Source of the DNA: a virus
Virus record (IMG/VR): IMGVR_UViG_3300037606_000566
Coordinates: 1-35,818 of that record
Direction: 5' to 3' (one strand)
Length of the DNA: 35,818 bases
Positions within the stretch are counted from its first letter, which is position 1; every line of letters begins with the position of its first letter. The position numbers and the translations under genes were made by a program. A model generated the notes under the pieces. That model searched no databases and was not told the DNA's origin. It saw only the letters and a list, made by a program, of their open reading frames with translations. Positions 4,435 through 29,258 of the stretch are shown here, one piece after another.

Positions 4435-6252
4435 TTACCTAACACGAATTTGGATATCTTTTGATGGGTTCTTAATCTCAAACATTGTTGTTGGTTCCCC
4501 AAATAAAGTCGCCTCGCCAAATAAACTTATTTCTCTAGTCTGCTGGTCAACGTATTCTTGAGAAATTTCATTTAAACTATACTCACCTCCAACTTTATTT
4601 ATTACCCGAATATCCAAAACGTTTAACACACCACCAACATTGTTAATTAGTTCTATTAATTGAGACATGTATATATTATCACCCATTTGGAATTTATTTA
4701 TATTCATATAATCTCTAATCTCAGTTATCACTTGACTCATAATTTGAGCTTGTGGAAATTGTTTGTCGATGTATAAATCAACGTCAAAAGCTAAATTAAC
4801 GATTCTACCATTACTAATTTGAACATAATCATTAAGCATTTTATAATCAGCTAAATACGTTACAATATTTTCTCTTAAAACGCTAGTAGAATCATTTGAT
4901 AATTTACTGTTACTATCTAAACCTAAAACATATATTTTTATTTTATTTTGTTCTTCTAATACACCACATCTAAAGGGTATGCCGAATTTTCCTGGCATTT
5001 GAGCTATTCTGGTCTGGTAATCTTTAATCGTAACCGCTCTGTTTTGAGAAGAAAAATTATAACGTACCATGTGTTTTATTTCATCTACACTTGGTGCATC
5101 TTTACCACCTAAAGCTGGAAATAAATTGTTTACCTTTAATGAATCCCTTACAGCTTTATTTTTTGCTTGGTCAACACCGTTAATAATTAGATTTAAAATA
5201 CCTAGACTATTAATTATGTTTGGACCTAAATTAGTGTTAGCACCACCACCTACTCTGTATCTAATAAACATAGTATTGTTAGCACTCGGAACGGTACCCA
5301 ATGACAAATTATTAATAAAATTACCAATTTGATTCACTAAAGCCGCATTTGAATCGAATTCATTTAAACTACTAGTATCTTGCGTACCAGCACCGAATAT
5401 TAACTTTGTAAAACCTAAATCAGTGTATTCACTGATGAATTTTTTTGTGACTGAAATCCATTTTCCTGGTTTTGCCATGGAAGCATCAGATATTTTAGTG
5501 GTGTCTTCTACGAATATTTTGTCCTCAGCCAATGCGTCTACTTCATACCATCTATTATTAGCGTCAACAAACTTATCTATTGTTGGTTCTGAGCTAAAAC
5601 TAGTACCTTGTAAGGTAATAACTGAATCAATTGATAGAACATTATCCTCTGGTAATATTACTTCAAGGAAAGGCTTTACATCACCTTGCGTTAAAACTCT
5701 TTTTAAAATTCTAGTGTAACCGTTAGTTACTATTTCTCTTTTTATTAAAGTATAGTTAGTTAAGTTACCATTTGAATTAAAATTTGGGATTATTAATCTG
5801 TTTGGAATACCACCAACCGTAAAGGGATTAGAAAAATCAATGTCTGATGTGGTTTCAAATACTTTACCACCACCAGAAACTTGAGCACCACTTTTAATTA
5901 TTGGTGTGTATGATAGGTCGAAACTATCACCGTTTACTGGAACAGTAATGTTAAAGTCAACAATAGTAACACTAGGTCTTTTCCCAGGTATCTTTAACCC
6001 AAACGTTCTAGCCATCGACAAAACTGACTTTCTTTCTCTAGCATAGTCTATTTGTGTTTCTTGGAACATTCTGTCAGTATTTACCGATAACATATCTCCA
6101 ACAGCAGCATTTAATTCTAAAAGCATCATACCTACTGATGCATCATTAAAATCGTTAAAAATATCTGGATAATATTGTCTAACCATACTTACTAATTCAG
6201 TACGTATATCTGCGAAATTTCTTGCCGTATAACCGATTCCCTTATTTGCCAT
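4435..6252 (-). CDS. 6: Baseplate wedge protein, T4 gp6 / baseplate J-like
   Basis: 605 residues, close to T4 gp6 (660). The N-terminus has the usual gp6/J pattern: ARNFADIRTELVSMVRQYYP, then NDFNDASVGMMLLELNAAVG and DMLSVNTDRMFQETQIDYAR, followed by an RKSVLSMARTFGLKIPGKRPS segment (about residues 70-95). The middle is beta-rich. The C-terminal half has NRAVTIKDYQTRIAQMPGKF (about 400-420), typical of the J-family core that dimerises to close the baseplate ring. In T4, gp6 joins wedges into the inner baseplate ring and works with gp25 and gp53. Here gp25 lies just upstream, but a plus-strand endonuclease gene now separates the two. The ATG at 6252 is preceded by an A/T-only leader with no Shine-Dalgarno sequence. 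Confidence 0.9.
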   Translation of the reverse strand: MANKGIGYTARNFADIRTELVSMVRQYYPDIFNDFNDASVGMMLLELNAAVGDMLSVNTDRMFQETQIDYARERKSVLSMARTFGLKIPGKRPSVTIVDFNITVPVNGDSFDLSYTPIIKSGAQVSGGGKVFETTSDIDFSNPFTVGGIPNRLIIPNFNSNGNLTNYTLIKREIVTNGYTRILKRVLTQGDVKPFLEVILPEDNVLSIDSVITLQGTSFSSEPTIDKFVDANNRWYEVDALAEDKIFVEDTTKISDASMAKPGKWISVTKKFISEYTDLGFTKLIFGAGTQDTSSLNEFDSNAALVNQIGNFINNLSLGTVPSANNTMFIRYRVGGGANTNLGPNIINSLGILNLIINGVDQAKNKAVRDSLKVNNLFPALGGKDAPSVDEIKHMVRYNFSSQNRAVTIKDYQTRIAQMPGKFGIPFRCGVLEEQNKIKIYVLGLDSNSKLSNDSTSVLRENIVTYLADYKMLNDYVQISNGRIVNLAFDVDLYIDKQFPQAQIMSQVITEIRDYMNINKFQMGDNIYMSQLIELINNVGGVLNVLDIRVINKVGGEYSLNEISQEYVDQQTREISLFGEATLFGEPTTMFEIKNPSKDIQIRVR

Positions 6253-6287
6253 CTTAATTATTTATAAATAAATATAATCATTTAACT

Positions 6288-6319
6288 TTATTTGTAAATA
6301 ATTGTTTATTTACAAATAA
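6288..6319. promoter_or_regulatory. Perfect 14-bp inverted repeat between divergent genes
   Basis: Arms TTATTTGTAAATAA (6288-6301) and TTATTTACAAATAA (6306-6319) are exact reverse complements around a 4-base loop, TTGT. The repeat lies between the starts of gp6 (minus) and the plus-strand endonuclease. It could be a protein-binding palindrome acting on both genes, or an RNA hairpin upstream of either. The stem is almost all A/T, so it would be a weak intrinsic terminator. Confidence 0.6.
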
Positions 6320-6334
6320 TTAATTATTTTTTCG

Positions 6335-6342
6335 TACATTTG
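6335..6342 (+). promoter_or_regulatory. Possible -7 promoter element for the plus-strand endonuclease
   Basis: TACATTTG matches the Bacteroidota -7 consensus TAnnTTTG exactly and lies 28 bases before the ATG at 6370. No TTG sits at the expected -33 distance, so this is only half of a promoter. If used, transcription would begin near 6347, which excludes the TTG at 6340 as start codon and favours the ATG at 6370. Confidence 0.35.
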
Positions 6343-6369
6343 CGTAGTTATAATAAAGAAACAATAAGT

Positions 6370-8052
6370 ATGAAAAAAAAGACAATAGAAGATTTTATTT
6401 TAGAATCAAATAAAATACATAACAGTAAATATGATTATACTAATTCAGTTTATATAGATAATAACACTAAACTTAAGATAATATGTAGTGAGCATGGTGA
6501 ATTTGAACAGAAACCTAATAAACACATTTGTAATAAACAAGGTTGTCCAAAATGTGGTTCAAGTAAAACTAGTGATAAACAGAAGAACACAATCGAATTC
6601 TTTATTCAAAAGGCTAATGAGGTACATAGTGATAAATATGATTACTCAAAGGTTATATATAAGAACACTAAAACTAAGGTTATAATAATTTGTCCTATCC
6701 ATGGTGAATTCGAACAAACGCCAGATAATCATTTATCTGGTAGAGGATGTATGTACTGTGGTGGTACAATTAAAATGGATGGAAAGTTATTTATATCTAA
6801 AGCTCAAAAAATACATAACAATAAATACGATTATTCAAAAGTTGTTTATACTAATTCTAGAACTAAAGTCACTATAATTTGTGCTATTCATGGTGAATTC
6901 GAACAAACACCAAATAACCATCTATCCAAAGAGCAAGGTTGTTTTGAATGTTTAGGTAAAATATACAATACCGACACTTTTAAAACTATATGTAGTATAG
7001 TTCATAATAATAAATATGATTACTCAAAAGTAATCTACAATAACTCTCAGGGTGAAGTCGAAATAATTTGTCCTATTCATGGTGAATTTAATCAAAGGGT
7101 TGATTCACATAGACAAGGAAATGGTTGTATTAAATGTTCAAATAATGGTACATCGTCTCATGAAATTGAAATAAAGACTTTTATAAAATCACTTGACGTT
7201 AAAATTATAGAGAATACTAGGAAAATAATAAAATCATTTGAATTAGATATTTATTTACCAGACCATAAAATAGCTATTGAATATAATGGGTTATATTGGC
7301 ATTCCGAAATATATAAAGATAAAAATTACCACCTCAATAAAACACAATTATGTTCAGAACAAGATATTCAATTAATACACATATTTGAGGATGAATGGTT
7401 AAATAAACAAGATATTGTTAAATCTAGACTTAAAAATATTCTTGGTTTAACACAAAAAAGAGTTTATGGTAGAAAATGTGAAATAAAAGAGGTATCAACA
7501 AAACAAGCCAGAGAATTTTTAATTAATAATCATTTACAAGGATATAGTAATTCAAGTATTAGGTTAGGGTTATATTATGAAAACAAGTTAGTTTCTTTAA
7601 TGACTTTTGGTAATTTAAGAAAGATTTTAGGTCAAAATAAAAAAGAAAACTCATATGAATTACTTAGATTCGTCAATGAGTTAGATACGAGCGTAATTGG
7701 TGGGGCTGATAAATTATTTAAATATTTTATAAAGAATTATAATCCCAAAGAAGTTATTAGTTATGCTGATAAAAGATGGAGCGTTGGTAATTTATATGAA
7801 AAATTAGGTTTTGAATTTGTTCATGACTCAAAACCTAACTATTTTTATATTATAAATAAAGAAAGGAAATACAGGTTTAATTATCGAAAAGATTTGTTAG
7901 TTAAAGATGGTTATGATAAAGCAAAGTCAGAACATGACATCATGTTAGAAAGAGGTATTTATCGAATCTATGACTCTGGTAATAAAAAATATATTTTAAG
8001 ATTTTTTACTATTTCACTTATATGTTTACAACAATTATATCTGACGTTGTAA
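6370..8052 (+). CDS. Homing endonuclease: four zinc-ribbon repeats plus Vsr-like (EDxHD-type) nuclease
   Basis: About 560 residues from the ATG at 6370; a TTG at 6340 in frame would add ten residues. The first 260 residues are four copies of a roughly 60-residue unit: HNxKYDYSKVxY, then CPIHGEF, then GCxxC. Each carries a C-x2-H and C-x2-C set fit for one zinc ion. Next comes a nuclease of the Vsr/PD-(D/E)xK-like class seen in I-Bth0305I relatives (FELDIYLPDHKIAIEYNGLY, then IHIFEDEW). The C-terminal 190 residues (NNHLQGYSNSSIRLGLYYEN, VISYADKRWSVGNLYEKLGF) look like the Mom/GNAT-like domain often fused to such nucleases. It is the only plus-strand gene, wedged between gp25 and gp6, and its last 35 bases run antisense into the end of gp25. 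The family role (cutting alleles that lack it) is established; activity here is inferred. Confidence 0.85.
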   Translation: MKKKTIEDFILESNKIHNSKYDYTNSVYIDNNTKLKIICSEHGEFEQKPNKHICNKQGCPKCGSSKTSDKQKNTIEFFIQKANEVHSDKYDYSKVIYKNTKTKVIIICPIHGEFEQTPDNHLSGRGCMYCGGTIKMDGKLFISKAQKIHNNKYDYSKVVYTNSRTKVTIICAIHGEFEQTPNNHLSKEQGCFECLGKIYNTDTFKTICSIVHNNKYDYSKVIYNNSQGEVEIICPIHGEFNQRVDSHRQGNGCIKCSNNGTSSHEIEIKTFIKSLDVKIIENTRKIIKSFELDIYLPDHKIAIEYNGLYWHSEIYKDKNYHLNKTQLCSEQDIQLIHIFEDEWLNKQDIVKSRLKNILGLTQKRVYGRKCEIKEVSTKQAREFLINNHLQGYSNSSIRLGLYYENKLVSLMTFGNLRKILGQNKKENSYELLRFVNELDTSVIGGADKLFKYFIKNYNPKEVISYADKRWSVGNLYEKLGFEFVHDSKPNYFYIINKERKYRFNYRKDLLVKDGYDKAKSEHDIMLERGIYRIYDSGNKKYILRFFTISLICLQQLYLTL

Positions 8053-8398
8053 ATACCTCATCTGTTATTGAATATCTTATAGTTAGTGTTGCCGCATGGT
8101 CACTTTCTTCTGATTCAACAATTGAGAGTTCATCAATTGTTAATTGGGGAAAATATGCTTTTATTACGTTGTGGATTTCTTCTTTAATTCCACTCATTGT
8201 TAATTCGTCATTTGGTTCGAATATAAACTTCATTAAATCTGTACCAAAATCTGGTTTATAAAGTCTTTGACCTCTTCTAGTAAGAATTAGATGTAGTAGG
8301 TCAGCTTTTACTGCTTGGGTATCATTATCATTCAAAGCCAAAAAATGTCCTTTATCGCTATCTTTAAACGGGTAGTTTATATTTATAAATCTTGCCAT
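8018..8398 (-). CDS. 25: Baseplate wedge protein gp25 (GPW/gp25 family)
   Basis: 126 residues, near T4 gp25 (132). The family core is readable: KADLLHLILTRRGQRLYKPD followed by FGTDLMKFIFEPND, then IKEEIHNVIKAYFPQLTIDE. The LxTxxGxRxxxPxFG pattern is the hallmark of this family, structurally lysozyme-like but not enzymatic. In contractile tails it starts sheath assembly and binds gp6 and gp53 in the wedge. Here it is the first gene after the nrdA terminator. Its C-terminal codons (8018-8052) overlap the end of the plus-strand endonuclease gene, so the two genes converge. It probably needs its own promoter, but none with the TTG/TAnnTTTG pattern is visible in 8399-8457. Confidence 0.9.
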   Translation of the reverse strand: MARFININYPFKDSDKGHFLALNDNDTQAVKADLLHLILTRRGQRLYKPDFGTDLMKFIFEPNDELTMSGIKEEIHNVIKAYFPQLTIDELSIVESEESDHAATLTIRYSITDEVFTTSDIIVVNI

Positions 8399-8457
8399 AT
8401 TATTCTTTAATTTATAAATATAATAACATTTAATTTTTATAAGTAAATATAGGAATT

Positions 8458-8485
8458 AAAAAAGGGAGCCAATTGGTTCCCTTTT
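8458..8485 (-). terminator. Intrinsic terminator after the RNR genes
   Basis: Read on the minus strand, AAAAGGGAACC pairs with GGCTCCCTTTT around an AATT loop (one G-T pair), followed directly by a run of six T. It starts 16 bases after the stop codon of the last nrdA piece, so it should end the operon that holds the helicase, nrdB and nrdA pieces. Confidence 0.8.
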
Positions 8486-8500
8486 ACTTTTTGTTTTATT

Positions 8501-9118
8501 TTACGTAGAACAACCTTCACACTCAAATTGACTTTCTGTCGGTTTTTCTGGTTGTTTTACTTTACTCATGTCAATAGCTAAATGTTTAGCTTTCATTTCA
8601 ACTGGTTGACTTCTTAAATAGTATTGTCCAGTTTTTAACCCTAATCTCCAAGCTAGAAAATGTGCTGTTGTTAATTTACCTACCGTTGGAGTAGCGAAGA
8701 ATAAATTTAAACTCTGTGATTGGTCAATAAATGGACCTCTTTCAGCTGACATTTCTATTAAAGATTTTTGTGACAACTCCCAAACTGTTTTGTAAATGTC
8801 TTTTAAATCTTGACTAATTCCTGAAATATTTTGAACACTTCCTTCACTTTTAATTAATTCTTGTAAAATATCTCTATTCCATAATCCTTCAGCTTCTAAG
8901 TCCCTTACTAGATGTTTATTTACCATCGCAAATTCACCACCAGTTACTTTTCTAACATAAAGATTTGACGTAAATGGTTCAAATGCTTCGTTTGCCCCAA
9001 TTACTCTAGCTGAGTTATGACTAACACAACCGTTTTCCATTATATAATGATTTACATTAGGTACTTCAATATCCCATGTTGGTTTTACTTCTCCTTTAGA
9101 TATTTTTTTTATTTTCAT
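8501..9118 (-). CDS. nrdA: NrdA fragment 3: split-intein C-half fused to the C-terminal part of the RNR large subunit
   Basis: 205 residues. Residues 1-35 are a C-terminal split-intein half ending NGCVSHN, followed by Ser36 as the +1 extein residue. Residues 36-205 continue class Ia NrdA: SARVIGANEAFEPFTSNLYV matches the conserved stretch after the substrate-phosphate loop, and MSAERGPFIDQSQSLNLFFA is equally typical. The end, FECEGCST, has a Cys-x2-Cys pair expected for the mobile tail that re-reduces the active site. The piece cannot work alone. It must be spliced to fragment 2 (9171-10154), whose C-terminal intein half starts at the matching position after PTAS. The two genes are separated by 52 A/T-rich bases and no endonuclease gene. 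It is followed by a terminator. Confidence 0.92.
   Translation of the reverse strand: MKIKKISKGEVKPTWDIEVPNVNHYIMENGCVSHNSARVIGANEAFEPFTSNLYVRKVTGGEFAMVNKHLVRDLEAEGLWNRDILQELIKSEGSVQNISGISQDLKDIYKTVWELSQKSLIEMSAERGPFIDQSQSLNLFFATPTVGKLTTAHFLAWRLGLKTGQYYLRSQPVEMKAKHLAIDMSKVKQPEKPTESQFECEGCST
9014..9118 (-). other. Split intein 2 of NrdA, C-terminal half (35 residues)
   Basis: It starts at the gene's own ATG with a Lys-rich strand (MKIKKISKGEVKPTWDIEV), then block F (WDIEVPNVNHYIMENG) and block G (CVSHN). The terminal His-Asn precedes Ser, as needed for Asn cyclisation and Ser+1 attack. Its length matches known split-intein C-halves. Confidence 0.9.
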
Positions 9119-9170
9119 TTTTTTTTCTTAATTTATTAATAATTTTTATTTGATAACAAAACATCGAGGG

Positions 9171-10154
9171 TTATTCGAAAATATTTAAAATATCGTCATC
9201 TAATAATAGGTCTTTAACTTCAACCCAAGTTTCTTGACCATCTCTATTTACCTTAAACTTATGGTTTGGTGTTGCCTCAAAAATAGAACCATCTTCCATT
9301 TCTATTTTGTACACTTCTGAATACGCATTGTATTTAATTTTATCAACTTCTTCGTAACCATTAGTGGTTTTTACATTAAAAGGTTTTAATGGTAACCATT
9401 GTTGTAAATTGTTGTCCTCTAAAGCTGACCAATCGATATTATTTTCTTCCAATATATCTTTAAAGGATTTAACACCGTTTTCGGTTTGTATTCTAGTTCC
9501 AATAACTTGACAACTAGCAGTTGGTGGTGCTGTTGTTACTAAAGAATTTCTAACACCATATTTAATTATGTCTTCTCTTAATTGTTTCCAATCATGAAGA
9601 CCAGATAAATCTTCTTCATTTATTCCCCACATTTCCCATTGGAAAACACCCTCAGAAATAGGTGAACCTTCATACCCATGATATTTTAAACCACTTGATT
9701 TAGCTAAATTACAAGATTCCTTAAGTGCATTATAATAAATGGTTTCAAAAATGTTTTTATTTAATTTCCTTGCACTTTCTGAAGTAAAAGGAAGTTTTAA
9801 TATCGCATATGTGTCAGCTAATCCTTGAATACCAATTCCTAATGCTCTTTGCTCTAAACCACCTTTTCTACCTTCTTTTGTAGAATATTCATTGACCTCA
9901 ATTGCGATATTAAGTGATTTAGTTATTGAACGAGCAACCCTTCCTAACTCAATAAAGTCATATTTACCATCTTTAATAAATTTATGTACTGGGATACTTG
10001 TAAGCGTACAAATCGCAGTTGTCTGATAATCAGTAGATTCCATAATTTCTGCACAATTATGTACTAAAATACCGTTCCCAAAGAAATTACTATTACCTTC
10101 AACTGTAATGTCATACACCTTTTTATTTTCTTTTAATTTTTCTATTTTTATCAT
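9171..10154 (-). CDS. nrdA: NrdA fragment 2: intein C-half, middle of RNR large subunit, second intein N-half
   Basis: 327 residues made of three parts. Residues 1-33 are the C-half of split intein 1. Residues 34-214 are the central RNR barrel: CAEIMESTDYQTTAICTLTS starts with the thiyl-radical cysteine (Cys34) and carries a redox cysteine at 49; the 15-residue spacing is that of eukaryote-like class Ia enzymes. The segment ends NSLVTTAPPTAS, part of the loop that binds substrate phosphate. Residues 215-327 are the N-half of split intein 2. This protein must be spliced at both ends. Its ATG lies one base after the TAG of the GIY-YIG gene, so translation may be coupled to it. Splicing all three pieces would give about 770 residues, close to human R1 (792) and E. 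coli NrdA (761). Confidence 0.93.
   Translation of the reverse strand: MIKIEKLKENKKVYDITVEGNSNFFGNGILVHNCAEIMESTDYQTTAICTLTSIPVHKFIKDGKYDFIELGRVARSITKSLNIAIEVNEYSTKEGRKGGLEQRALGIGIQGLADTYAILKLPFTSESARKLNKNIFETIYYNALKESCNLAKSSGLKYHGYEGSPISEGVFQWEMWGINEEDLSGLHDWKQLREDIIKYGVRNSLVTTAPPTASCQVIGTRIQTENGVKSFKDILEENNIDWSALEDNNLQQWLPLKPFNVKTTNGYEEVDKIKYNAYSEVYKIEMEDGSIFEATPNHKFKVNRDGQETWVEVKDLLLDDDILNIFE
9174..9512 (-). other. Split intein 2 of NrdA, N-terminal half (113 residues)
   Basis: It begins CQVIGTRIQTENG (block A, Cys1 nucleophile) right after PTAS. Block B is GSIFEATPNHKFKV, with the TxxH pair. It stops after LLLDDDILNIFE, so the endonuclease region and C-half are absent and the partner is at 9014-9118. 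It is very acidic: roughly 23 Asp/Glu against 12 Lys/Arg. Confidence 0.9.
10056..10154 (-). other. Split intein 1 of NrdA, C-terminal half (33 residues)
   Basis: MIKIEKLKENKKVYDITVEG holds block F, and NSNFFGNGILVHN ends in the block G His-Asn, followed by Cys. It closely resembles the C-half of the metagenomic NrdA-2 split intein as I recall it (FDITVKDNSNFFANNILVHN). The pairing with the N-half at 11354-11668 follows from the RNR sequence on either side. Confidence 0.92.
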
Positions 10155-10155
10155 T

Positions 10156-11304
10156 CTACACGTATTTAAATTTTACATTTTTATATTTAATTTTTCTACC
10201 TTCACAAACATCAACTATGTATCTATGAACACCATTTATATGTTTAACAGCATCAGACACAGAATTAAATATGGTTTCAACACCATTTTCCTCAATCATT
10301 TTAACTTTAATTTTAACACCATTTTTAATTTTAAATTTATATTCACCATTTTCATATCTAAAAACATCTTTTTCGGTATTATTACAAACACATTTTCGCC
10401 TAATAACTTCCTTACAAATATTAAAATGTTTTGAAGCTGATTCAATATTGTCAAATATTATTTCAATCTCGTCTTCAATATTTGTTTTATAAAAAACTTT
10501 TTTATAGTTTTTAAAAACCCTACCTTTATTTTCTTTAGGTTTTGGTATTACTAATTCACTAAATTTAAACCTCCATTTAAAACCACCAGCAGTACTACCT
10601 TGTTTAATTGCTCTAGTAATACCAGAGTTATGTTTTATTCCATTTTTTATAGCAGCTTCAATACTTGAAGAATATGCTTCAATATCATTACCATTTAAAT
10701 CCAATTTAACAACACACTTAGCGTTTGGGTTATTTAATCTATTATTCTCAGACATTTTAAGTTTAGTTTGTTCACTAGCTTTTCTACCTATATTCCAATG
10801 TTTACCAATTATTTTAGCTTTATGTGATGGTCTATCCTCTAATTTTAACCCATACATTGGGTTATTAACACCAATTGCATTTATTCTATGTTTTTCACGT
10901 ATTTCTTCTTTATTTGGATTATTAGTGAAAGTATCACCACCACCAAAACCACCTATACTTATGTTAGTTAAAATACCAGTGTTATTATACCTAAAACCCA
11001 TAATATTAATTAATAAAGCTTCTATCGTATAAGCTGTTTTTTCATCTAACCCATCAATAATTTTAATTATAATTGGTTCTAACCCTTCATTTAAAATTTG
11101 GTTAATAACATTTAACTTATAAGTATTATTTGTCAAATCTTTGTTTTGTTCTTTTACACTTTTTAAATGTTTATCTAACCTACCAGAACCATCTTTACCT
11201 TTACCAATATAAAACGGTTTGTTTTTAAAAGTATAACTACCGAATTTATAGTCACCATTAGACCTTGGGTCTAAGTAAGCGTACACATAATATTTTTTTT
11301 CCAT
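10156..11304 (-). CDS. GIY-YIG homing endonuclease lying between the two halves of NrdA split intein 1
   Basis: 382 residues from the ATG at 11304. An ATG at 11343 in frame exists, but its codons fall inside a perfect hairpin and translate to low-complexity MISIIYIYIME, so I reject it. The N-terminus is a GIY-YIG nuclease: YYVYAYLDPRSNGDYKFG, PFYIGKGKDGSGRLDKHL, then a Glu in TIEALLINIMG. Next is a NUMOD3-like segment (NNPMYG, then SEQTKLKMSENN), then NUMOD1-like DNA-binding units (CVVKLDLNGNDIEAYSSSIE, and two further SxxxAxKH units). Such enzymes spread themselves by cutting alleles that lack the insertion, here presumably intact nrdA. It sits where the first NrdA break occurs, and its stop is one base before the start of the next nrdA piece. 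Confidence 0.9.
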   Translation of the reverse strand: MEKKYYVYAYLDPRSNGDYKFGSYTFKNKPFYIGKGKDGSGRLDKHLKSVKEQNKDLTNNTYKLNVINQILNEGLEPIIIKIIDGLDEKTAYTIEALLINIMGFRYNNTGILTNISIGGFGGGDTFTNNPNKEEIREKHRINAIGVNNPMYGLKLEDRPSHKAKIIGKHWNIGRKASEQTKLKMSENNRLNNPNAKCVVKLDLNGNDIEAYSSSIEAAIKNGIKHNSGITRAIKQGSTAGGFKWRFKFSELVIPKPKENKGRVFKNYKKVFYKTNIEDEIEIIFDNIESASKHFNICKEVIRRKCVCNNTEKDVFRYENGEYKFKIKNGVKIKVKMIEENGVETIFNSVSDAVKHINGVHRYIVDVCEGRKIKYKNVKFKYV

Positions 11305-11345
11305 TGTGATTTCCATTATGTATATATATATAATGGAAATCACAA
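11304..11345 (-). promoter_or_regulatory. 16-bp hairpin abutting the start codon of the GIY-YIG gene
   Basis: Arms 11304-11319 and 11330-11345 are perfect reverse complements (core TGTGATTTCCATTAT) around a 10-base TA-rich loop. On the minus-strand RNA, the 3' arm ends on the A of the AUG at 11304, so the whole ribosome-landing region is inside the stem. T-rich sequence typical of a terminator does not follow. T4 endonuclease genes such as I-TevI use a hairpin like this to block translation of long transcripts. Confidence 0.8.
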
Positions 11346-11350
11346 AAAGA

Positions 11351-12925
11351 TTAAAATATTTCTAATACATCAGTCTCAACTAAATCTTTAGCTAACACAT
11401 ACCCTCTATTTTTTGTGAATATTTGGTGTTCTGGTGTGCAAATAATATGTTTACCAGTTTCCTCATCAGTTATCTTTAAAACATCAGCTGACTCATTCAT
11501 TAAGGCAGCATTTGTTATCTTTTTATATTCTGGTTTATTTGTTTCAATATTATAACTTAATACTTCTATACCGTGTTCTACATTAAAATCGTTAACAACA
11601 TCGGAAATATTAAAATCAACTTCCTTACCATGATATTTTGTTTTAATAATTGTTTCACCATCAACACACAAATTACTTGAATGAATCATACCAACGTTTT
11701 TTTGGTTCGATTTTTTATTAGCATGGTCTTTGTGACACATGTAAGGCATACCAGTCTCAATTTGGGCTTCTAATATTTTTAACCATAAATCATAAGCTTT
11801 TATCTTGGTTCCAATACCTAAAGCCACAGCTTTGTCGTATTCTTCTTCAAATTCAACACCATATATTTCATAAAATGGTTTTAGACCAGCTTCTTTTATG
11901 TCATCTGGGCAAAATAGATACCAATCTCCTCCAGATTCAACTGCTCTCATGAAATTATCTGTATTCCATAAGCCCGAAAATAAATCTCTGGCCCTCATTG
12001 TTTCATCACCTGTTTTTTTTCTAATATCTAAAACATCAAATACATCTTTATGCCATGGTTCGATGTAGATTGCACAGGAACCTGGTCGTTTACCACGTTG
12101 ATTCCAAAACCTAAGTGTTTCATTAACAATTTTTAAATATTTCAAAATACCACCAGCTTTTCCGTTAGATTTACCGACATTACTTTCTTTAGAACGCATG
12201 TTAGAAACGGCTAATCCGATACCCTCTGCCTTTGACGATGAAATTGCAATTCTAGATAAAATATTTAATAAACCATCAGTTGAATCCTCTGGAATTATTG
12301 ATAAGTTACATGATGCAATTTGTCCAATTGTGGTACCAATGTTAATTTTTAAAGGTGTTGCTGGACTTTCTTTTTGAAAACTTAAATCATCATACTTCTC
12401 TAAAAAGTCTTCTGGTGTTCCCGTTATCATTAAAGCAACCCTAACATATAAGTGTTGTGGTCGTTCAACGATTGAACCGTTTTTCAATTTTAGAAGATAA
12501 ATGTCTTTTAAAGAACACCACCCAAAATAATCAAAATGAAAATCTCTTTTATAATCAATTGCTGACTCAATTAATTCGATATTATCTTTTACTTTATTGA
12601 AGTAACCCTCACTTAATAGACCAGCGTTATACATCTTTTTAGTCGCTTTCATAAACGATTCCTCAGTTTCCTTATGAAGTTTAGTTATTGAAATATTAGC
12701 CGCTAATTTTGAGTAATCTGGATGATTCATCGCTAAAGATTCGGCCACAACAGAAATTAAGTCATCTAATTGATTAGTTGTCATTAAATCTGCAATACCT
12801 TGTGTTACTTTAATAAATACATCATCCGCATTTACTTTTAATCCTTCTGATTGTTTTTTAATTCTTGTTAGAATTTTATTCGGGTTAAAATCAATCTTAT
12901 TCCCGTTTCTTTTAATTACTTGCAT
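11351..12925 (-). CDS. nrdA: NrdA fragment 1: N-terminal part of RNR large subunit fused to a split-intein N-half
   Basis: 524 residues. Residues 1-90 are an ATP-cone (MQVIKRNGNKIDFNPNKILT), the allosteric activity domain. Residues 91-419 are the first part of the class Ia barrel: GTTIGQIASCNLSIIPEDST holds Cys206, partner of the later redox cysteine, and GKAGGILKYLKIVNETLRFW plus RGKRPGSCAIYIEPWHKDVF are strong R1 signatures. The RNR sequence stops at HSSNL, exactly before the thiyl-radical cysteine. Residues 420-524 are a split-intein N-half. The gene starts 11 bases after nrdB in an operon with the helicase. It reduces ribonucleotides to deoxyribonucleotides only after joining fragments 2 and 3. 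Confidence 0.95.
   Translation of the reverse strand: MQVIKRNGNKIDFNPNKILTRIKKQSEGLKVNADDVFIKVTQGIADLMTTNQLDDLISVVAESLAMNHPDYSKLAANISITKLHKETEESFMKATKKMYNAGLLSEGYFNKVKDNIELIESAIDYKRDFHFDYFGWCSLKDIYLLKLKNGSIVERPQHLYVRVALMITGTPEDFLEKYDDLSFQKESPATPLKINIGTTIGQIASCNLSIIPEDSTDGLLNILSRIAISSSKAEGIGLAVSNMRSKESNVGKSNGKAGGILKYLKIVNETLRFWNQRGKRPGSCAIYIEPWHKDVFDVLDIRKKTGDETMRARDLFSGLWNTDNFMRAVESGGDWYLFCPDDIKEAGLKPFYEIYGVEFEEEYDKAVALGIGTKIKAYDLWLKILEAQIETGMPYMCHKDHANKKSNQKNVGMIHSSNLCVDGETIIKTKYHGKEVDFNISDVVNDFNVEHGIEVLSYNIETNKPEYKKITNAALMNESADVLKITDEETGKHIICTPEHQIFTKNRGYVLAKDLVETDVLEIF
11354..11668 (-). other. Split intein 1 of NrdA, N-terminal half (105 residues)
   Basis: Block A starts CVDGETIIKT with Cys1. 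Block B is GKHIICTPEHQIFT with TxxH, and the half ends AKDLVETDVLEIF at the stop codon. It resembles the N-half of the NrdA-2 split intein as I recall it (VLSYNIDTKEVEYKEISDA compared with VLSYNIETNKPEYKKITNA here). It is acidic: roughly 20 Asp/Glu against 11 Lys/Arg. Confidence 0.92.
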
Positions 12926-12936
12926 GTTTTTTTTTA

Positions 12937-13914
12937 TTAAATTTCTTCATCAAATGAAATAGGTCCACTTAAATCAGCTGATTTGTATTCTGTTGAGCGA
13001 CCCTCAAAAAAGTTCTGTTTTGTTTTTAAAGCAATTTGATTCATAAATTCAAATGGATTTTTAGCGTTGAAAACTTTGTCGCACTCAAGTTGAACTAGTA
13101 AACCATCAACAACAAACTCTAAATATCTTTTCATTAATTCAGAATTCATACCAATAAGAGACACTGGTAAAGATTCAGTAATAAACTCTTTTTCAATTTC
13201 TAATGCTGACAAGAAAATTTCTTTAATTCTTTCGTTAGATGGTTTGTTTACGATGTGGTTGTTCAATAAGTGAATAGCAAAATCACAATGTAGTGCTTCA
13301 TCTCTTGAAATGAATGCATTACTATCACATAACCCAGGCATTAACCCTCTTGATTTCAAATAGAATATACTACAAAAAGAACCACTGAAAAATATACCTT
13401 CAACAGCAGCAAAAGCCACTAATCTTTCAGCAAATGATTCAGATTCAATCCATTTTAAAGCCCAATCAGCCTTCTTCTTGACTGGTTCCATATATTCTAT
13501 CGCCTTAAAGCATTCGTTTCGCTCTTTGGTGTCTTTGATGTACGTATCAATCAATAGTGAATACATATTACTATGTATATTTTCCATCATAATTTGAAAA
13601 CCATAAAAGAATGATGCTTCAGTATACTGAACTTCTTTTAAAAAGTTTTCAGCCAAGTTTTCATTTACGATACCATCTGAGGCAGCAAAAAAAGCTAATA
13701 CGTTTTTAATGAAAAACCTCTCATTTTCAGATAATTTATTATTCCAATCGTCAATATCTTTAGATAAATCAACTTCTTTTACTGTCCACATTGATTCTAA
13801 AGATATTTCATAATATTTCCAAATATCTTCATGTTCAATTGGGAAAATAACAAAACGGTCCGAATTTTTAACTAAGATTGGTTCTATTTCTTCTACTCCA
13901 CTAATATTACTCAT
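12937..13914 (-). CDS. nrdB: Ribonucleotide reductase small subunit (class Ia, eukaryote-like)
   Basis: 325 residues, an ordinary length for NrdB/R2, with no intein. It makes the di-iron tyrosyl radical that starts catalysis in NrdA. Ligands can be read in the order of mouse R2: Asp49 in [11 protein letters not shown], Glu111 and His114 in [11 protein letters not shown], Glu172 in [11 protein letters not shown], and Glu206 and His209 in [10 protein letters not shown]. The radical tyrosine is Tyr118, four residues after His114. The stretch [16 protein letters not shown] is close to eukaryotic R2, in line with the eukaryote-like spacing in NrdA. The C-terminal tail (SFDEEI) is the acidic peptide expected to dock on NrdA. 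It lies 37 bases after the helicase C-piece, with simple tetranucleotide repeats in its leader. Confidence 0.96.
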
Positions 13915-13920
13915 TTGTTG

Positions 13921-13954
13921 TTTGTTTGTTTGTTTGTTTTTATTTATTTATTTA
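13921..13954. repeat. Tetranucleotide repeats in the nrdB leader
   Basis: On the plus strand there are four TTTG units (13921-13936), then four TTTA units (13939-13954). The last unit overlaps the stop codon of the helicase C-piece. On the nrdB mRNA they read as A-rich AAAT and AAAC repeats just before the ATG, which may help translation in a host without Shine-Dalgarno use. Confidence 0.75.
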
Positions 13955-14452
13955 TACTGGGACTATTAACCCCTCCATTACTTCGGTCTTTGTTTTTTGT
14001 GCCTTAGCCGCTGCAAATAATGTATTAACTCTTAATTGCTGTTGTACGCTATTATCTTCACTATGCTCTTTTTTTGTCCTAGCACCTTTACTTTCACCCA
14101 TATCAATTTGTATTCTTGAATTATCAAATTTAATATCCTTAAATATAACACCATCTTTACCAAAACGAGATTTAAGTATTGCCATAGTTGCTGTATCATC
14201 ATCTTTTTGGTCTAAAGTCTTAGCGATTGATACAATGAAGTGACCAATCTGCCCTTTTTTTATAGAACCACCCATTTGGTTTGCTTCTACTACTTCCGCT
14301 GAAAGAGAACTATTGTGCGTATAGATATCATTAGCGTAAAACATATGTGTTTCTTCTACTGTTATATCAATGGTGTCCTCTTCTCCGATTAATTCTATTG
14401 ATTCAATTTCGTCTAGCTCAAAATCAATAGAATCTAAATTATGTTCTTTCAT
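13952..14452 (-). CDS. 41: Helicase fragment 2: split-intein C-half fused to the C-terminal part of the gp41-type helicase
   Basis: 166 residues. Residues 1-47 are a split-intein C-half ending NDIYTHN. Residues 48-166 resume a gp41/DnaB-type helicase at SSLSAEVVEANQMGGSIKKG, then QIGHFIVSIAKTLDQKDDDT and a core strand FDNSRIQIDMGES, the region with the arginine finger and hexamer contacts. With fragment 1 the spliced enzyme would be 208 + 145 + 119 = 472 residues, against 475 for T4 gp41. Its ATG overlaps the TGA of fragment 1 (ATGA), so the two are translationally coupled and no endonuclease gene remains in the break. Without trans-splicing the phage would lack its 5'-3' replicative helicase. 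Confidence 0.93.
   Translation of the reverse strand: MKEHNLDSIDFELDEIESIELIGEEDTIDITVEETHMFYANDIYTHNSSLSAEVVEANQMGGSIKKGQIGHFIVSIAKTLDQKDDDTATMAILKSRFGKDGVIFKDIKFDNSRIQIDMGESKGARTKKEHSEDNSVQQQLRVNTLFAAAKAQKTKTEVMEGLIVPV
14312..14452 (-). other. Split intein of the helicase, C-terminal half (47 residues)
   Basis: Very acidic N-terminal extension (HNLDSIDFELDEIESIEL), then block F (DTIDITVEETHMFYAND) and block G (IYTHN) before Ser. It resembles the gp41-1 C-half as I recall it (IEVSGNHLFYANDILTHN). By eye it has 15 acidic residues and one lysine. Confidence 0.9.
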
Positions 14453-16773
14453 TGTTTTTTAATTAGTAATTTATCACCAACACTTAACCCGCTTTCAATT
14501 GAATTTAATTTTCCAGCCGATGTTGGAAAAACGTGTTTTTTAGATACTTTAATTTCTTTACCAGATTTTAATTTTATTTTATATACTGGTTGTTTTTCTA
14601 TTGGGAAAACATGTGAAACTATTTTGTAACCATCTTTAGTTAAAATTTTATCGTTTAATTTAACGTCTTTTATCTCAATTGTACCTTTACCTTCTATAAT
14701 TATCTTAGTATCTAAAGAAAGACAACGATTTCCTTGAACCGCTGTCCAACCAGCCATATCTAGTTCAGATAACAACGTCTCAAATTGCCTCATTACGCTT
14801 CCTTCACCAGCGTTTATATCATCAAATTTTCTTGATGGTTCAACGCAATCTATGTAGTCTAACAAGATTAAGTCTGGTCTAAACCCTTGTGCGATTAATT
14901 TTCGAATATATTGTCTAATCATAGGTATTGTTGTCCCATCACTTGAAAATTTTACTAACCTTAAATCACCTAGCTTTTGTTTTTCAGCGACAATTGACAT
15001 AACTTCATCATGATGTGACGACAAATCATTTAGAGGGATACCTGTCCAACAAGATAAATGTTTTCTTTGAATAACTTTTGGGTTATCTTCAAAAAATATT
15101 TGTAAAACATTATAACCATCATTAGCTCCAGTATTCGCTATTTTTGTCATCATTGTTGTATTATGTGTGACGATAAAATCGTCTGTAACATATAAATGTT
15201 CTGGGTCATCAACCATAATACATTTAGCTTCTTCATCATGTGAATATTCAATACTTTCTATGAACTTATTGTTAGAGTAGTTATCGTTGTTTACTACTCT
15301 AACCAGCTTACTAGTTAATTTAAACGGAACTATACCATTGTCTTTAGGGAATGAAATAGTTAATCTATAAGTTAACTCTCCTACTTTATTAGAGACTATA
15401 CACGAGCCACCTAAAGATAAAACTAATTCTTTAACGTCATCACATAGCTGTTTGGAATTAGTTTTATAAACAAAACTACCGTCTTTTCCAACATTACTAT
15501 CGTTATCTAATAACCCTTGTAAAATCTCTTGTCTATTGTTAATTGAATTATATAGATATTCTTTAGGTATAAATTTATTATTAGATGACGAATCAAATAA
15601 CCCAAGTTTTTTTATTACATCGGTGATTTGATTTATGGTTATGATAATATCATCTTTATACATTTCAACACCATATGCTGAATCATCACCTATACTTTTT
15701 TTAATGTGTTCTATCAGTTCAAAATCTTTAGTTACTATTATAGAAGACTTGAAGTATTCATCACCCATTAATAACCCCAAAATGTATGGGTTTAACGGTA
15801 ATTCTTTTTCGTCAAAAATAACTGGTTTAACTGTTGGAATCTTATAGTTTACCACCCCTTTAGTGGCAGAATTTAACTTTTCAATAATATCACTGGTTCT
15901 CATAACAGTAAAATCATCGTTTGGGTCCAATTTAGTTTGTTGATTAACTGACCATAAGTGTTCTTTATCACACATTGTTGATGTTCCGTCATTAAACTTT
16001 ACTTGGTACATTGGTCTGATACCTTGTGGGTAAACCCCAGTAACATTTGTTTGTCTACCTAATCTATTAATTACCCTATCACCAACTTTAATGTCACCCA
16101 TTAAAGAATAACCACTTGGTGTATAAATTTTACTTGAAACACCTTGTGCTTTACCAACACCAAATGGTGCTAATATTACACCTAACTCACCTTTGGATAA
16201 TCCACCATCCATTATTTCGTCTAACCCAGAAATACCAGTTGGTATTGGTTTCCTAAAATCAACATCTAAAACACTACTGATGTTGTCATAAACGCTCATA
16301 CCTTGGTCTTTGTTATCACCAACTTCAAGTGATTTCCTTAACATAGCTTCGATTTGGTCGAAATTATCTAACCCACCAGTTTTATTTAATTTTTCAACAT
16401 TTACTAAAGTCTTCAACATGTCTTGCTGTTTACAAAACCTCATAGCCATGTCTTGGACTTTTAATGTATCATTTAAATCAGCTTCTTGTATTTTTCTAAG
16501 TTGTGCAATGACGTATTTTTGTTGTATATCGTCTTTAACTTCTTCTAATAATCTAAATTGTAAACTACCAATATCTGGTACTATATTATCAATTCTATGT
16601 GCATCTTTAATTGTAGCAACAATTATTTTCAAGTACGAGTCAGCAAAGTAATTTGGGTCAACAATATCTAAGATAGAATCACTAAATTTCCTATCCGTTA
16701 TAAACTGTGCGATTAGTCTAATTTGATAATCGTAACCTAAATAACCAAAACTATCTCTATCTAACACCGCCAT
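14449..16773 (-). CDS. 41: Helicase fragment 1: gp41/DnaB-type N-part with an internal intein and a split-intein N-half
   Basis: 774 residues in four parts. Residues 1-208 are the helicase N-domain and start of the RecA-like core (PTGISGLDEIMDGGLSKGEL, then Walker A APFGVGK). Residues 209-538 are a complete intein that interrupts Walker A before its Thr. Residues 539-683 continue the motor: TTMMTKIANTGAN, Walker B PDLILLDYIDCVEP, and WTAVQGNR at the conserved Gln/Arg sensor loop. Residues 684-774 are a split-intein N-half. One cis- and one trans-splicing event are needed to give a working 5'-3' helicase for the replisome. It lies 44 bases downstream of a gene of unknown function and overlaps fragment 2 by four bases. 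Confidence 0.94.
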   Translation of the reverse strand: MAVLDRDSFGYLGYDYQIRLIAQFITDRKFSDSILDIVDPNYFADSYLKIIVATIKDAHRIDNIVPDIGSLQFRLLEEVKDDIQQKYVIAQLRKIQEADLNDTLKVQDMAMRFCKQQDMLKTLVNVEKLNKTGGLDNFDQIEAMLRKSLEVGDNKDQGMSVYDNISSVLDVDFRKPIPTGISGLDEIMDGGLSKGELGVILAPFGVGKAQGVSSKIYTPSGYSLMGDIKVGDRVINRLGRQTNVTGVYPQGIRPMYQVKFNDGTSTMCDKEHLWSVNQQTKLDPNDDFTVMRTSDIIEKLNSATKGVVNYKIPTVKPVIFDEKELPLNPYILGLLMGDEYFKSSIIVTKDFELIEHIKKSIGDDSAYGVEMYKDDIIITINQITDVIKKLGLFDSSSNNKFIPKEYLYNSINNRQEILQGLLDNDSNVGKDGSFVYKTNSKQLCDDVKELVLSLGGSCIVSNKVGELTYRLTISFPKDNGIVPFKLTSKLVRVVNNDNYSNNKFIESIEYSHDEEAKCIMVDDPEHLYVTDDFIVTHNTTMMTKIANTGANDGYNVLQIFFEDNPKVIQRKHLSCWTGIPLNDLSSHHDEVMSIVAEKQKLGDLRLVKFSSDGTTIPMIRQYIRKLIAQGFRPDLILLDYIDCVEPSRKFDDINAGEGSVMRQFETLLSELDMAGWTAVQGNRCLSLDTKIIIEGKGTIEIKDVKLNDKILTKDGYKIVSHVFPIEKQPVYKIKLKSGKEIKVSKKHVFPTSAGKLNSIESGLSVGDKLLIKKQ
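14452..14724 (-). other. Split intein of the helicase, N-terminal half (91 residues)
   Basis: Block A CLSLDTKIIIEGKG follows GNR; block B is GKEIKVSKKHVFPT. The end, VFPTSAGKLNSIESGLSVGD then KLLIKKQ, resembles the gp41-1 N-half as I recall it (LFPTQTGEMNISGGLKEG). It is basic: about 19 Lys against 10 acidic residues. Confidence 0.92.
15160..16149 (-). other. Contiguous 330-residue class 3-type intein in the helicase Walker A motif
   Basis: It starts with Ala rather than Cys or Ser (AQGVSSKIYTPSGY) after GVGK and ends VTHN before Thr. Counting from its Ala1, it has Trp66 after the block B His-Leu, Cys310 at block F position 4 (AKCIMVDDPEHLYV) and Thr328 in VTHN: the WCT triplet of class 3 inteins. 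A LAGLIDADG-type nuclease domain lies between, with motifs PYILGLLMGDEYF and EILQGLLDNDSNV. The two acidic residues are kept, but the usual Gly after each Asp is Glu or Ser, so activity may be weakened. Confidence 0.85.
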
Positions 16774-16817
16774 TTATCATTTTTTTTTAATTATTACTTA
16801 AAACTTTAATGAAAATT

Positions 16818-17291
16818 TTATTTTTTATGAATAAATTTTCTATTGCTAAAAGATTGTCTAATTTCAGAAATGATTTCTGGAATTATCTCTTTTATATTTA
16901 CATTTACTTTTAGAGATAAGTAAAAAAACTCGTTTGGAAAGATTGATTCTCCACGAACTTCTTTATCTAAAAGAAATTGAAACTTAAATTCATCCATTTT
17001 TTTTGGTGGTGATTTATAGGTTTCTTGTGATTGGTCTATGTACGGATTGTAATTGGACCACATATAATCATTTGATTGTTTTTTTAAAAACGTGGGGATT
17101 ATACCTAATCTACCTAAATCGTTTAAATGCATACCTGAAACTTCATCTAACATTTCTTTCATGTTTGTCATGTCTTCATCAAAATCAAAAATATGAAAAC
17201 CTCTTTGACAAACAATATTATTGTTCACATAAAGGATAAACTCAAACCTATCATTGTCAAATTTTTTAAAAACCTCTTTTTTATTTTCCAT
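16818..17291 (-). CDS. Unknown protein between helicase and RNase H genes
   Basis: 157 residues; I do not recognise the family. It starts MENKKEVFKKFDNDRFEFIL with an alternating pattern that suggests a beta-sheet (FILYVNNNIVCQRGFHI). A mixed helical and aromatic middle (MWSNYNPYIDQSQETYKSPP) follows, then FFYLSLKVNVNIKEIIPEII near the end. There are no membrane segments, signal peptide, or nucleotide-binding motif. Its place in the minus-strand replication cluster, 30 bases after the RNase H gene and 44 bases before the helicase, suggests a replication accessory role, such as a loader or replisome factor, but nothing in the sequence proves that. The leader has three exact 7-base TTAATTA repeats. 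Confidence 0.75.
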   Translation of the reverse strand: MENKKEVFKKFDNDRFEFILYVNNNIVCQRGFHIFDFDEDMTNMKEMLDEVSGMHLNDLGRLGIIPTFLKKQSNDYMWSNYNPYIDQSQETYKSPPKKMDEFKFQFLLDKEVRGESIFPNEFFYLSLKVNVNIKEIIPEIISEIRQSFSNRKFIHKK

Positions 17292-17294
17292 TTG

Positions 17295-17315
17295 TTAATT
17301 ATTAATTATTAATTA
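17295..17315. repeat. Three tandem 7-base TTAATTA repeats in a leader
   Basis: Three exact copies of TTAATTA lie between the RNase H stop and the ATG of the 157-residue gene. Like other leaders in this window, it is A/T-only and without a Shine-Dalgarno sequence. Confidence 0.75.
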
Positions 17316-17321
17316 TTTATT

Positions 17322-18374
17322 TTAAAATTTTATTTTTTCTCTTGCTATTAAGTTCTTAAACGGAACTAAATAATCGGGATACCTATATTCACCAATCGCT
17401 ACATCTAACCCATCTCTTTTCATAAAGGATAGTACGTTTTTTAATTCTCTACCACTATCATCTAACGTACCTTCTATCAAAGCCTCTAAATTACCTATAC
17501 CATTTTTAGTCATCATTGGAGAGCTAAGGTCAACTAATTTTTTATTTATTTCATATATCTTATTACCTTGAATACCATCTGTAATAGAATATAACAAATT
17601 TTCTAAAGCCAGTAAAGGTTTCTTTTTAGTTGAAACTCTTTCATCGCTCAATATTTTGGCCTCGACTAGTAATTCTTCAATAGAGAACTTTCGGGTAGTT
17701 ATTTCTGGAAACAATTTTATTAGTGTTTTTTCACCAACACCTTTTATACCTTTGATTGAATCGGAATTATCTCCAATTATTGTTTTCATTAGTACAGCAT
17801 TCTCTCTATGGTAACAAAAGTACGAAGAAAAATTATCTATCCCAACGTATTTCTTTAAATCTAAGAAATAAATTTTTACGTTTTCCCTAACTAACTGAGC
17901 CATATCTCTATCGTTAGTAGCTATGGTTATTTTTTCGTTTTCTTTTTTATTTAAACAATAATAAGCGATAAAGTCATCACCTTCTATTATATCATCCTTT
18001 AACTGTCTGACATACATTTCATTTAAATATTCCCAAACAACTTCTCTTTGTAATAGTTCTGATTCATCTATTGGTTTAGTGCCGTTAATGTAATCTTTAC
18101 CTCTATCACTTTTGTATGGTTTATATATCTCATACCTTAGTTTACCACTAAAATTACCATCCCAGAAGACGTATACTCTATGATATACGTCTTCTGATAG
18201 TAACATTCTTAATATAGTAATAAATTGGTAAATACCGCCTATATGTTGCCCATTATTATTATAACTATTTTTAGCCCCAAAAAAACTAGTTTTAAACAAT
18301 GCTGAACCATCTATGAGTAAAGTGTTTTGTATTTTTTTTCTTACTTCACCGTTTTTTGGTGGTCTTTTATTCAA
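17322..18374 (-). CDS. rnh: RNase H / FEN-type 5'-3' nuclease (T4 rnh-like)
   Basis: 350 residues, somewhat longer than T4 RNase H (305). Acidic metal-binding residues appear in the family order: Asp22 in LLIDGSALFKTSFFGA, Asp72 in VYVFWDGNFSGKLRYEIYKP, Glu131/Asp133/Asp134 in IIEGDDFIAYY, Asp155/Asp157 in TIATNDRDMAQL, and Asp202/Asp205 in GDNSDSIKGIKGVGEKTL, the last running into the helix-hairpin-helix that grips DNA. The enzyme removes RNA primers and flaps during lagging-strand synthesis. It sits between uvsX and the helicase module, as expected for replisome genes. A long perfect inverted repeat lies inside its coding sequence (18163-18196). Confidence 0.9.
   Translation of the reverse strand: MNKRPPKNGEVRKKIQNTLLIDGSALFKTSFFGAKNSYNNNGQHIGGIYQFITILRMLLSEDVYHRVYVFWDGNFSGKLRYEIYKPYKSDRGKDYINGTKPIDESELLQREVVWEYLNEMYVRQLKDDIIEGDDFIAYYCLNKKENEKITIATNDRDMAQLVRENVKIYFLDLKKYVGIDNFSSYFCYHRENAVLMKTIIGDNSDSIKGIKGVGEKTLIKLFPEITTRKFSIEELLVEAKILSDERVSTKKKPLLALENLLYSITDGIQGNKIYEINKKLVDLSSPMMTKNGIGNLEALIEGTLDDSGRELKNVLSFMKRDGLDVAIGEYRYPDYLVPFKNLIAREKIKF
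18163..18196. repeat. Perfect 13-bp inverted repeat inside the RNase H gene
   Basis: Arms 18163-18175 and 18184-18196 (CAGAAGACGTATA on the plus strand and its exact complement) flank an 8-base loop. It encodes part of the SEDVYHRVYVFWD stretch, so the structure is laid over conserved codons. Function unknown. Confidence 0.65.
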
Positions 18375-28948: not shown

Positions 28949-29258
28949 ATAATAATTTATGATTTTTAACTTCCCCCATGTATCTAATAATTGCACTTTC
29001 AAATGGGAAAGGAATTCTAAGCATGGTCATATCTGGTATGTTAAATTCTAACCCACCATATTGTGGGTTGGCTAACATAATTAACCAACCACTATAAGGG
29101 TTATTATAATACAAATTACTTAATTTGTCAAGTCTAGTTAAGCCTTGTTTATATACCATACTTTTATCTTCACCAGAGACTGGTATTCTAATACCTGGAA
29201 TTGGTGTAATGTTTTCATCAATTCTAAATCTACTATATCTATCGAAATATTCGCTCAT
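28938..29258 (-). CDS. Small baseplate protein, LysM-like / gp53-like
   Basis: 106 residues. The segment LTRLDKLSNLYYNNPYSGWL followed by IMLANPQYGGLEFNIPD and LRIPFP follows the LysM-like layout found in T4 gp53 and tail proteins of the X type: helix, YY...W..I...N, then an inserted proline near the end. In T4, gp53 joins wedges in the baseplate. Here it sits between the OmpA-domain protein and the hub gene. It overlaps the hub start by 11 bases, so translation is probably coupled. The 89-base gap upstream has a small GC-richer patch (29283-29320) with an imperfect short hairpin and no clear promoter. The gp53 link is by pattern only. Confidence 0.6.
   Translation of the reverse strand: MSEYFDRYSRFRIDENITPIPGIRIPVSGEDKSMVYKQGLTRLDKLSNLYYNNPYSGWLIMLANPQYGGLEFNIPDMTMLRIPFPFESAIIRYMGEVKNHKLLYGE

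Follow-up and report, generated by a model that had tools for sequence, protein, structure and literature searches.

Conserved enzyme genes that are interrupted by a split intein and carry a free-standing endonuclease gene between its halves have reportedly been described as 'fractured genes', and nrdA, the gene for the large subunit of class I ribonucleotide reductase (RNR), is said to be among them. Here we analysed a stretch of 35,818 bases from a virus (IMG/VR record IMGVR_UViG_3300037606_000566; this whole stretch is called the window below), which carries T4-like genes including gp25 (baseplate), a gp32-like gene, a DnaB-type helicase gene (gp41) and nrdB. Its nrdA differs from a simple fractured gene in having two split inteins and three polypeptides, with gap nucleases that range from present to eroded to gone among the window and its relatives. 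The general arrangement is already published: Dassa et al. (2009) reported seven nrdA and two nrdJ genes interrupted by inteins in ocean metagenomes, as related in the consulted part of PMC3653736. The double fracture is, so far as the searched literature reaches, a new variant, and no nrdA divided among three polypeptides by two split inteins was found in the parts of papers searched, which did not cover the contents of Dassa et al. (2009).

The split inteins NrdJ-1 (8ubs) and NrdA-2 are named in the consulted part of PMC7090010. The first intein of the window is alike to NrdJ-1 in sequence (8ubs, E 1e-16), and the window differs by a second split intein in the same gene. In nrdA of Campylobacter phage IBB_35 (HM246724; consulted part of PMC3322345), a split intein with open reading frames (ORFs) in its gap occupies the first site and an intein occupies the second, as here. 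However, IBB_35 has a contiguous intein at site 2 and one more contiguous intein upstream, hence its gene yields two polypeptides. Several orthogonal split inteins have also been used at once to join several polypeptides, as would happen here, in the multi-part ligation described in the consulted part of PMC7090010, but that system is engineered and not natural.

In the window, nrdA comprises three minus-strand ORFs, F1 (12925-11351, 524 amino acids, aa), F2 (10154-9171, 327 aa) and F3 (9118-8501, 205 aa). F1 consists of NrdA extein 1 (11669-12925, 419 aa), with the ATP-cone, the N-terminal domain and the first part of the barrel up to a C-terminal HSSNL, followed by the N-half of intein 1 (IntN1, 11354-11668, 105 aa), which has Cys1 and the block-B motif CTPEH and runs to a stop codon at 11351-11353. 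F2 begins with the C-half of intein 1 (IntC1, 10056-10154, 33 aa, terminal HN), continues as extein 2 (9513-10055, 181 aa, from CAEI to PTAS) and ends with the N-half of intein 2 (IntN2, 9174-9512, 113 aa, Cys1, block-B TPNH, stop codon 9171-9173). F3 is made up of the C-half of intein 2 (IntC2, 9014-9118, 35 aa, terminal HN, +1 residue Ser) and extein 3 (8504-9013, 170 aa, beginning with SARV, containing QYY and ending in ECEGCST).

The three exteins sum to exactly 770 aa (419 + 181 + 170), which matches the uninterrupted NrdA of the related loci L016 and L019 (770 aa each). Joined exteins align with NrdA of L016 over 770 residues at 84.3% identity, and both joints are gap-free (SNL/CAEI against SNLCSEI, and PTAS/SARV against PTASSARV). 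The Pfam RNR domains PF03477, PF00317 and PF02867 are ordered over the three pieces as in a class I NrdA: F1 holds the ATP-cone, lgN and lgC 1-213, F2 continues lgC from 212, and F3 holds lgC 393-523. All of the class I motifs SCNL, SNLCAEI, ICTL, QYY and ECEGC are present in the joined protein, with SCNL and SNL in F1, C-AEI and ICTL in F2, and QYY and the C-terminal Cys pair in F3. By Escherichia coli numbering, we take these motifs to be the active-site Cys, the Asn-x-Cys-x-Glu, the Tyr-Tyr and the C-terminal Cys pair, so that residues that must meet in the active site would be spread across three pieces. The Cys directly after intein 1 is, by the same numbering, presumably the catalytic thiyl-radical site; since intein 1 directly precedes it, the +1 residue of splicing would be the catalytic residue itself. 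An earlier note on this DNA had read one nrdA broken into three polypeptides, with clean RNR sequence at HSSNL/CAEI and PTAS/SARV and a sum of about 770 residues, and these comparisons bear it out.

That note had further placed N-half 1, C-half 1 with N-half 2, and C-half 2 on the three pieces in this order. With the NCBIfam intein models TIGR01445 and TIGR01443 (curated cut-offs 24.5 bits for the N-terminal and 15.6 bits for the C-terminal model), all four halves score above the cut-off in just this layout, at 27.5 bits in F1 and 35.8 in F2 for the N-terminal model and 43.5 bits in F2 and 22.8 in F3 for the C-terminal one. Splicing of such inteins requires Cys1, a block-B T-x-x-H, a terminal His-Asn and a +1 Cys, Ser or Thr, and these residues are found in both inteins of the window, of L009, of L114 and of Klebsiella phage KP13-7. 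As the note had also claimed, the two inteins of the window are different ones (29% identical in the N-halves and 44% in the C-halves), which is compatible with orthogonality of the two proposed splicing reactions.

To survey relatives, IMG/VR was queried with F2, F3, IntN1 and IntN2, and the best 80 loci were taken for each of F2 and F3. After removal of repeats, at least 161 distinct contigs were available, of which 136 with end-to-end nrdA were tallied and 25 partial ones left out; the sample is biased by the queries and excludes the window itself. The same two break points, for which the earlier note had proposed a search, recur in 7 of these 136 contigs (L004, L005, L006, L008, L009, L015 and L114) and in the isolate KP13-7. 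Neither site is interrupted in 112 contigs, site 2 alone is split in four (L010, L011, L012 and L014), a contiguous intein occupies site 1 in two, and one contig is unclear. Ten were called split at site 1 only, of which seven were left after inspection: L174, L175 and L178 were rejected as site-1 splits because one ORF holds both intein ends, so that their mini-intein is contiguous, and their break lies about 10 codons downstream. Within that break L174 (5429-9334) has a GIY-YIG-like ORF, judged by eye, and no intein halves were seen there. L131 and L132, counted among the 112, were likewise rejected as fully uninterrupted, as a contiguous intein lies at a third site, before the Cys of IAS/C in L131 and at the same coordinates in L132. 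In L159 (5215-7533), nrdA runs over five short frames resembling frameshifts, from either sequencing errors or decay. The site-1-split contigs L172, L173, L177, L183 and L185-L188 carry an N-half 38-63% identical to that of the window over the matched stretch.

The seven double-split contigs form three lineages. L004-L006 share 96-97% DNA identity with the window around nrdA (at least 99% within the nrdA pieces for L004, which equals L006), and L008, L009 and L015 have 77-81% protein identity to it; L007, L008 and L015 are identical to L009 over their shared length. A series of alleles is thereby seen, with no split in L016 and L017, site 1 only in L133, site 2 only in L010-L012 and L014, and both in the window, L004-L006, the L009 group and L114. 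When 24 NrdA extein sets are placed on a tree, three changes are the minimum that its well-supported branches require for the three-piece state, with the window counted. Moreover, intein 1 sits at SNL/C in the window and one codon later (SNLC/S or SNLC/C) in L009, KP13-7 and IBB_35, and the N-halves of the window and L009 are about 38-40% identical, compared with 81% in extein 1. These are different inteins at positions one codon apart, so acquisition of the first split probably took place on more than one occasion. At site 2, the window has PTAS/S and KP13-7 has PGE/T, possibly one codon apart, although the alignment is uncertain there. Megablast of window positions 1-24000 against 50,697 phage records gave no match, and a scan of genome contigs gave one relative, a fragment in a Bacteroidia bin that is too partial to classify.

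Cultured relatives of the arrangement came from phage tblastn matches, of which the best 40 of 2411 and the best 20 of 4746 were considered. Klebsiella phage KP13-7 (OP617745; L084) is split at both sites in the same order as the window, within a codon, although its annotation has merely nrdA_1, nrdA_2 and hypothetical proteins. Its order is nrdA_1, a probable group I intron with an HNH ORF, extein with IntN1, a GIY-YIG ORF, IntC1-extein-IntN2, another ORF, and IntC2-extein. Among seven phage records examined (PC14 and CC12667_12682_P3 in outline), both sites were seen to be split only in KP13-7; phiKp_21 has the site-2 split only and RaK2 has none. KP13-7 differs from the window in also carrying a probable group I intron at 2852-3516 (Rfam RF00028, 43.3 bits, E 1.6e-9 over 1001 bases searched). 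This score lies below the gathering score of 50, which means that the threshold can miss phage introns. With this probable intron, nrdA of KP13-7 would need RNA splicing and two protein splicings.

These three Klebsiella phages form a small series in which divergent tracts adjoin the split sites. Within extein 2 (552 bp), RaK2 and phiKp_21 have one difference in bases 1-400 and 21 in bases 401-552, adjoining site 2, while phiKp_21 and KP13-7 have 38 differences in bases 3-390, adjoining site 1, and zero in 391-552. We interpret these tracts as probable traces of co-conversion during homing, first at site 2 and later at site 1.

Homing would also account for the gaps. The space between F1 and F2 in the window, on which the earlier note was silent, is filled by a free-standing GIY-YIG/NUMOD homing-endonuclease gene (10156-11343, minus strand, 395 aa from GTG, in-frame ATG at 11316), with LEM-3_GIY-YIG, NUMOD1 and NUMOD3 above the Pfam cut-off. 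Site 1 thus has a free-standing endonuclease between intein halves, as fractured genes do, whereas the window has a spacer of 52 bp in gap 2, and the term fractured gene applies to site 2 by descent only. Spacers of 53 bp and 31 bp are found in gap 2 of L004 and L009, respectively, and L010 and L014 have there an ORF of 353-359 aa with weak matches to homing and HNH endonucleases in PHROGs and no match in Pfam. In L114 and L095 gap 2 holds a 90-aa ORF, and that of L114 matches the L010 ORF at its beginning (E 3e-34) and again at its extreme end (E 7e-9), which points to an internal deletion that left a nuclease remnant. In gap 1, L114 and L133 have a 261-aa GIY-YIG ORF (81% DNA identity to that of the window over 756 aligned bases for L114), and L009 has none.

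L004-L006 also lack the gap-1 GIY-YIG gene, despite their 96-97% identity to the window around it. The tail before F2 in L004 agrees with the 3' end of the window nuclease gene in 17 of 19 positions, a fit reached by 2 of 1000 shuffles, which suggests that L004-L006 lost the gene by deletion. The junction alone can be read both ways, but insertion into the window lineage is less favoured because a near-identical block common to the window and L114 extends into the start of the gene. This block (window 11677-11273) has 3 differences in 405 bp. It starts 9 bp ahead of the intein and stops about 44 bp inside the nuclease gene if the in-frame ATG is taken as its start (71 bp if the GTG is); outside it, the exteins, IntC1 and the nuclease are 78-81% identical between the two, and the overall figure for this region is about 79%. 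Since IntN1 is nearly identical and the rest is not, this half of intein 1 seems to have been transferred recently between the window and L114 lineages without its C-half. Across these loci, the gap nucleases appear to erode or vanish while the splits persist. A hairpin with a 16-bp stem (11304-11345, minus strand, z -6.5) overlaps the start of the GIY-YIG gene. L114 and L133 retain this hairpin with a different loop, and a possible role is to silence nuclease translation.

According to our model, the class I RNR large subunit of this T4-like phage would be made as three polypeptides, and two separate trans-splicing reactions, at SNL/C and PTAS/S, would ligate them into one NrdA of 770 residues. 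Each split intein would travel as a cassette with a free-standing homing-endonuclease gene between its halves; the two cassettes would have entered nrdA by homing, on separate occasions and in separate lineages, and the endonucleases would then decay or be deleted, leaving the gene fractured and dependent on trans-splicing. That three polypeptides are joined by two trans-splicings, and that the splits derive from homing cassettes whose nucleases decay, we hold to be very probable.

Several observations weigh against parts of this model. Pfam Intein_splicing (PF14890, cut-off 35.8) is above its cut-off in F2 only (59.4), with F1 below (28.8) and no match in F3. Intein 2 has weak matches alone among solved inteins (2keq, E 0.002); its better-scoring structure matches are mostly designed repeat proteins and were set aside as apparently spurious. 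The AlphaFold model of F2, from a four-row alignment, has a mean pLDDT of 49. On the tree, the three changes could be one gain and two losses, and the three-piece label clusters no better than shuffled labels over the 24 sets. As to homing, RaK2 and phiKp_21 also diverge (90-97%) in the far part of extein 3, at distances of 240 bp or more from site 2, and the KP13-7 tract contains a 60-bp bin free of differences, so the homing reading of the tracts is not forced. By blastp, the GIY-YIG proteins encoded in gap 1 of KP13-7 and of the window have no significant match to each other, and the gap ORFs of KP13-7 have no convincing match to the gap-2 ORFs of L010 and L014. The loss of the GIY-YIG gene in L004 is read from a short AT-rich match together with the shared block. 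Finally, synonymous changes are near saturation, so dN/dS is a rough measure in the following comparisons, and IntN1 has dN/dS of 0.73 and 0.77 in two divergent comparisons at 38% identity.

Selection on the intein halves bears on the rival that fares best, namely that the fragments assemble without splicing into an active NrdA held together non-covalently, the intein halves being relics or docking aids. The split nrdA of phage Aeh1 reportedly works as two polypeptides without ligation. In addition, no constraint on IntN1 is measurable between divergent alleles, although those alleles are different inteins and their dN/dS is uninformative on purifying selection, and in L174 a GIY-YIG-like ORF interrupts nrdA at a place where intein halves were not seen. 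The consulted part of PMC3653736 likewise has the Aeh1 gene broken by a free-standing endonuclease gene, mobE, and still working. Against this stand the other halves: between the window and L114, dN/dS is 0.08 for IntC1, 0.08 for IntN2 and 0.045 for IntC2, compared with 0.05-0.14 for the exteins, and it is 0.18-0.26 for these three halves when L009 is compared with the window and with L114. These values point to purifying selection on IntC1, IntN2 and IntC2, and the catalytic intein residues are kept in four lineages. To our knowledge, nrdA of Aeh1 carries no split inteins. Moreover, the insertions presumably lie inside active-site loops, where leftover tails of 33-113 aa would be expected to disturb the enzyme. 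Assembly without splicing is hence improbable in our judgement.

A dead and decaying nrdA, with the phage relying on a host or other RNR, would explain why the gene is interrupted by a selfish nuclease gene and why a nuclease remnant persists in the locus of L114. However, extein dN/dS among the three-piece lineages is 0.05-0.18, all 7 three-piece contigs with complete nrdA keep the pieces as open frames, and an intact nrdB for the small subunit (12937-13914, minus strand, 325 aa, uninterrupted) lies alongside, all of which count against a dead gene and make this explanation very unlikely. Joining at the RNA level, with the gaps as introns and a single mRNA encoding the enzyme, has in its favour the probable intron in nrdA of KP13-7, though at another place, and the capacity of the gathering threshold to miss phage introns. 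It is nevertheless less likely still: every piece is bounded by a start and a stop of its own, the breaks consist of intein sequence, and Rfam searches at cut-off, with no permissive search made there, found no family in window positions 6000-17500 or in L004, L009, L114 and L133. An assembly or sequencing artefact, conceivable as the window lineage is known from metagenome contigs only, is refuted by independent contigs, because the same pieces in L004-L006, L008, L009 and L015 (different datasets), as well as in distant L114 and the separately sequenced KP13-7, mean that the stops are no sequencing error of a single assembly.

Other genes of the window show related features. The gp41 gene is also fractured, by a third split intein near its C-terminus. 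Its first piece (14449-16773, minus strand) comprises an extein, a contiguous intein of 330 aa (15160-16149) that begins with Ala and lies at the Walker-A motif, a further extein and the N-half of the third split intein (14452-14724); the second piece (13952-14452, minus strand) comprises the C-half (14312-14452), followed by the C-terminal extein. An ATGA overlap links the two ORFs, and their exteins, once joined, make up 472 aa and meet cleanly at GNR/SSLSAEV; gp41 of L004 is likewise split there. On the plus strand, 6340-8052 encodes a homing-endonuclease-like protein of 570 aa (PHROG 559, E 2e-144) with zinc-finger repeats and a Mom-like C-terminal match. Its frame extends into the 3' end of gp25 (8018-8398); L004 and L014 have a similar ORF, and no ORF of at least 90 aa occurs at this place in L009 or L010. 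In L133 (7676-8425), gp25 residues 1-12 are fused to an apparent GIY-YIG endonuclease ORF, judged by eye, which looks like the entry of a nuclease gene into gp25. An ORF of 2111 aa at 22667-29002 has a VanY peptidase domain and a phage lysozyme domain near its C-terminus.

In the tree of one phage clade, the three-piece state occurs at three separate places and involves two different inteins at site 1; a Klebsiella jumbo phage has it as well. A broader interpretation, for and against which we see about equal chances, is that selfish split-intein cassettes repeatedly drive a gene from one to three polypeptides, through homing, nuclease loss and a ratchet to two orthogonal trans-splicings, as in constructive neutral evolution, with intein halves that are separately mobile. 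If the two trans-splicings occur as proposed, nrdA of the window would be a natural three-part protein ligation with intein pairs that evolved to function together in one cell, and would supply protein engineering with orthogonal split inteins that have co-evolved. The allele series, with neither, either or both splits and with the nuclease present, eroded or gone, allows direct tests of how split inteins originate, spread by homing and become fixed, and the Klebsiella isolates make the question testable in cultured phages.

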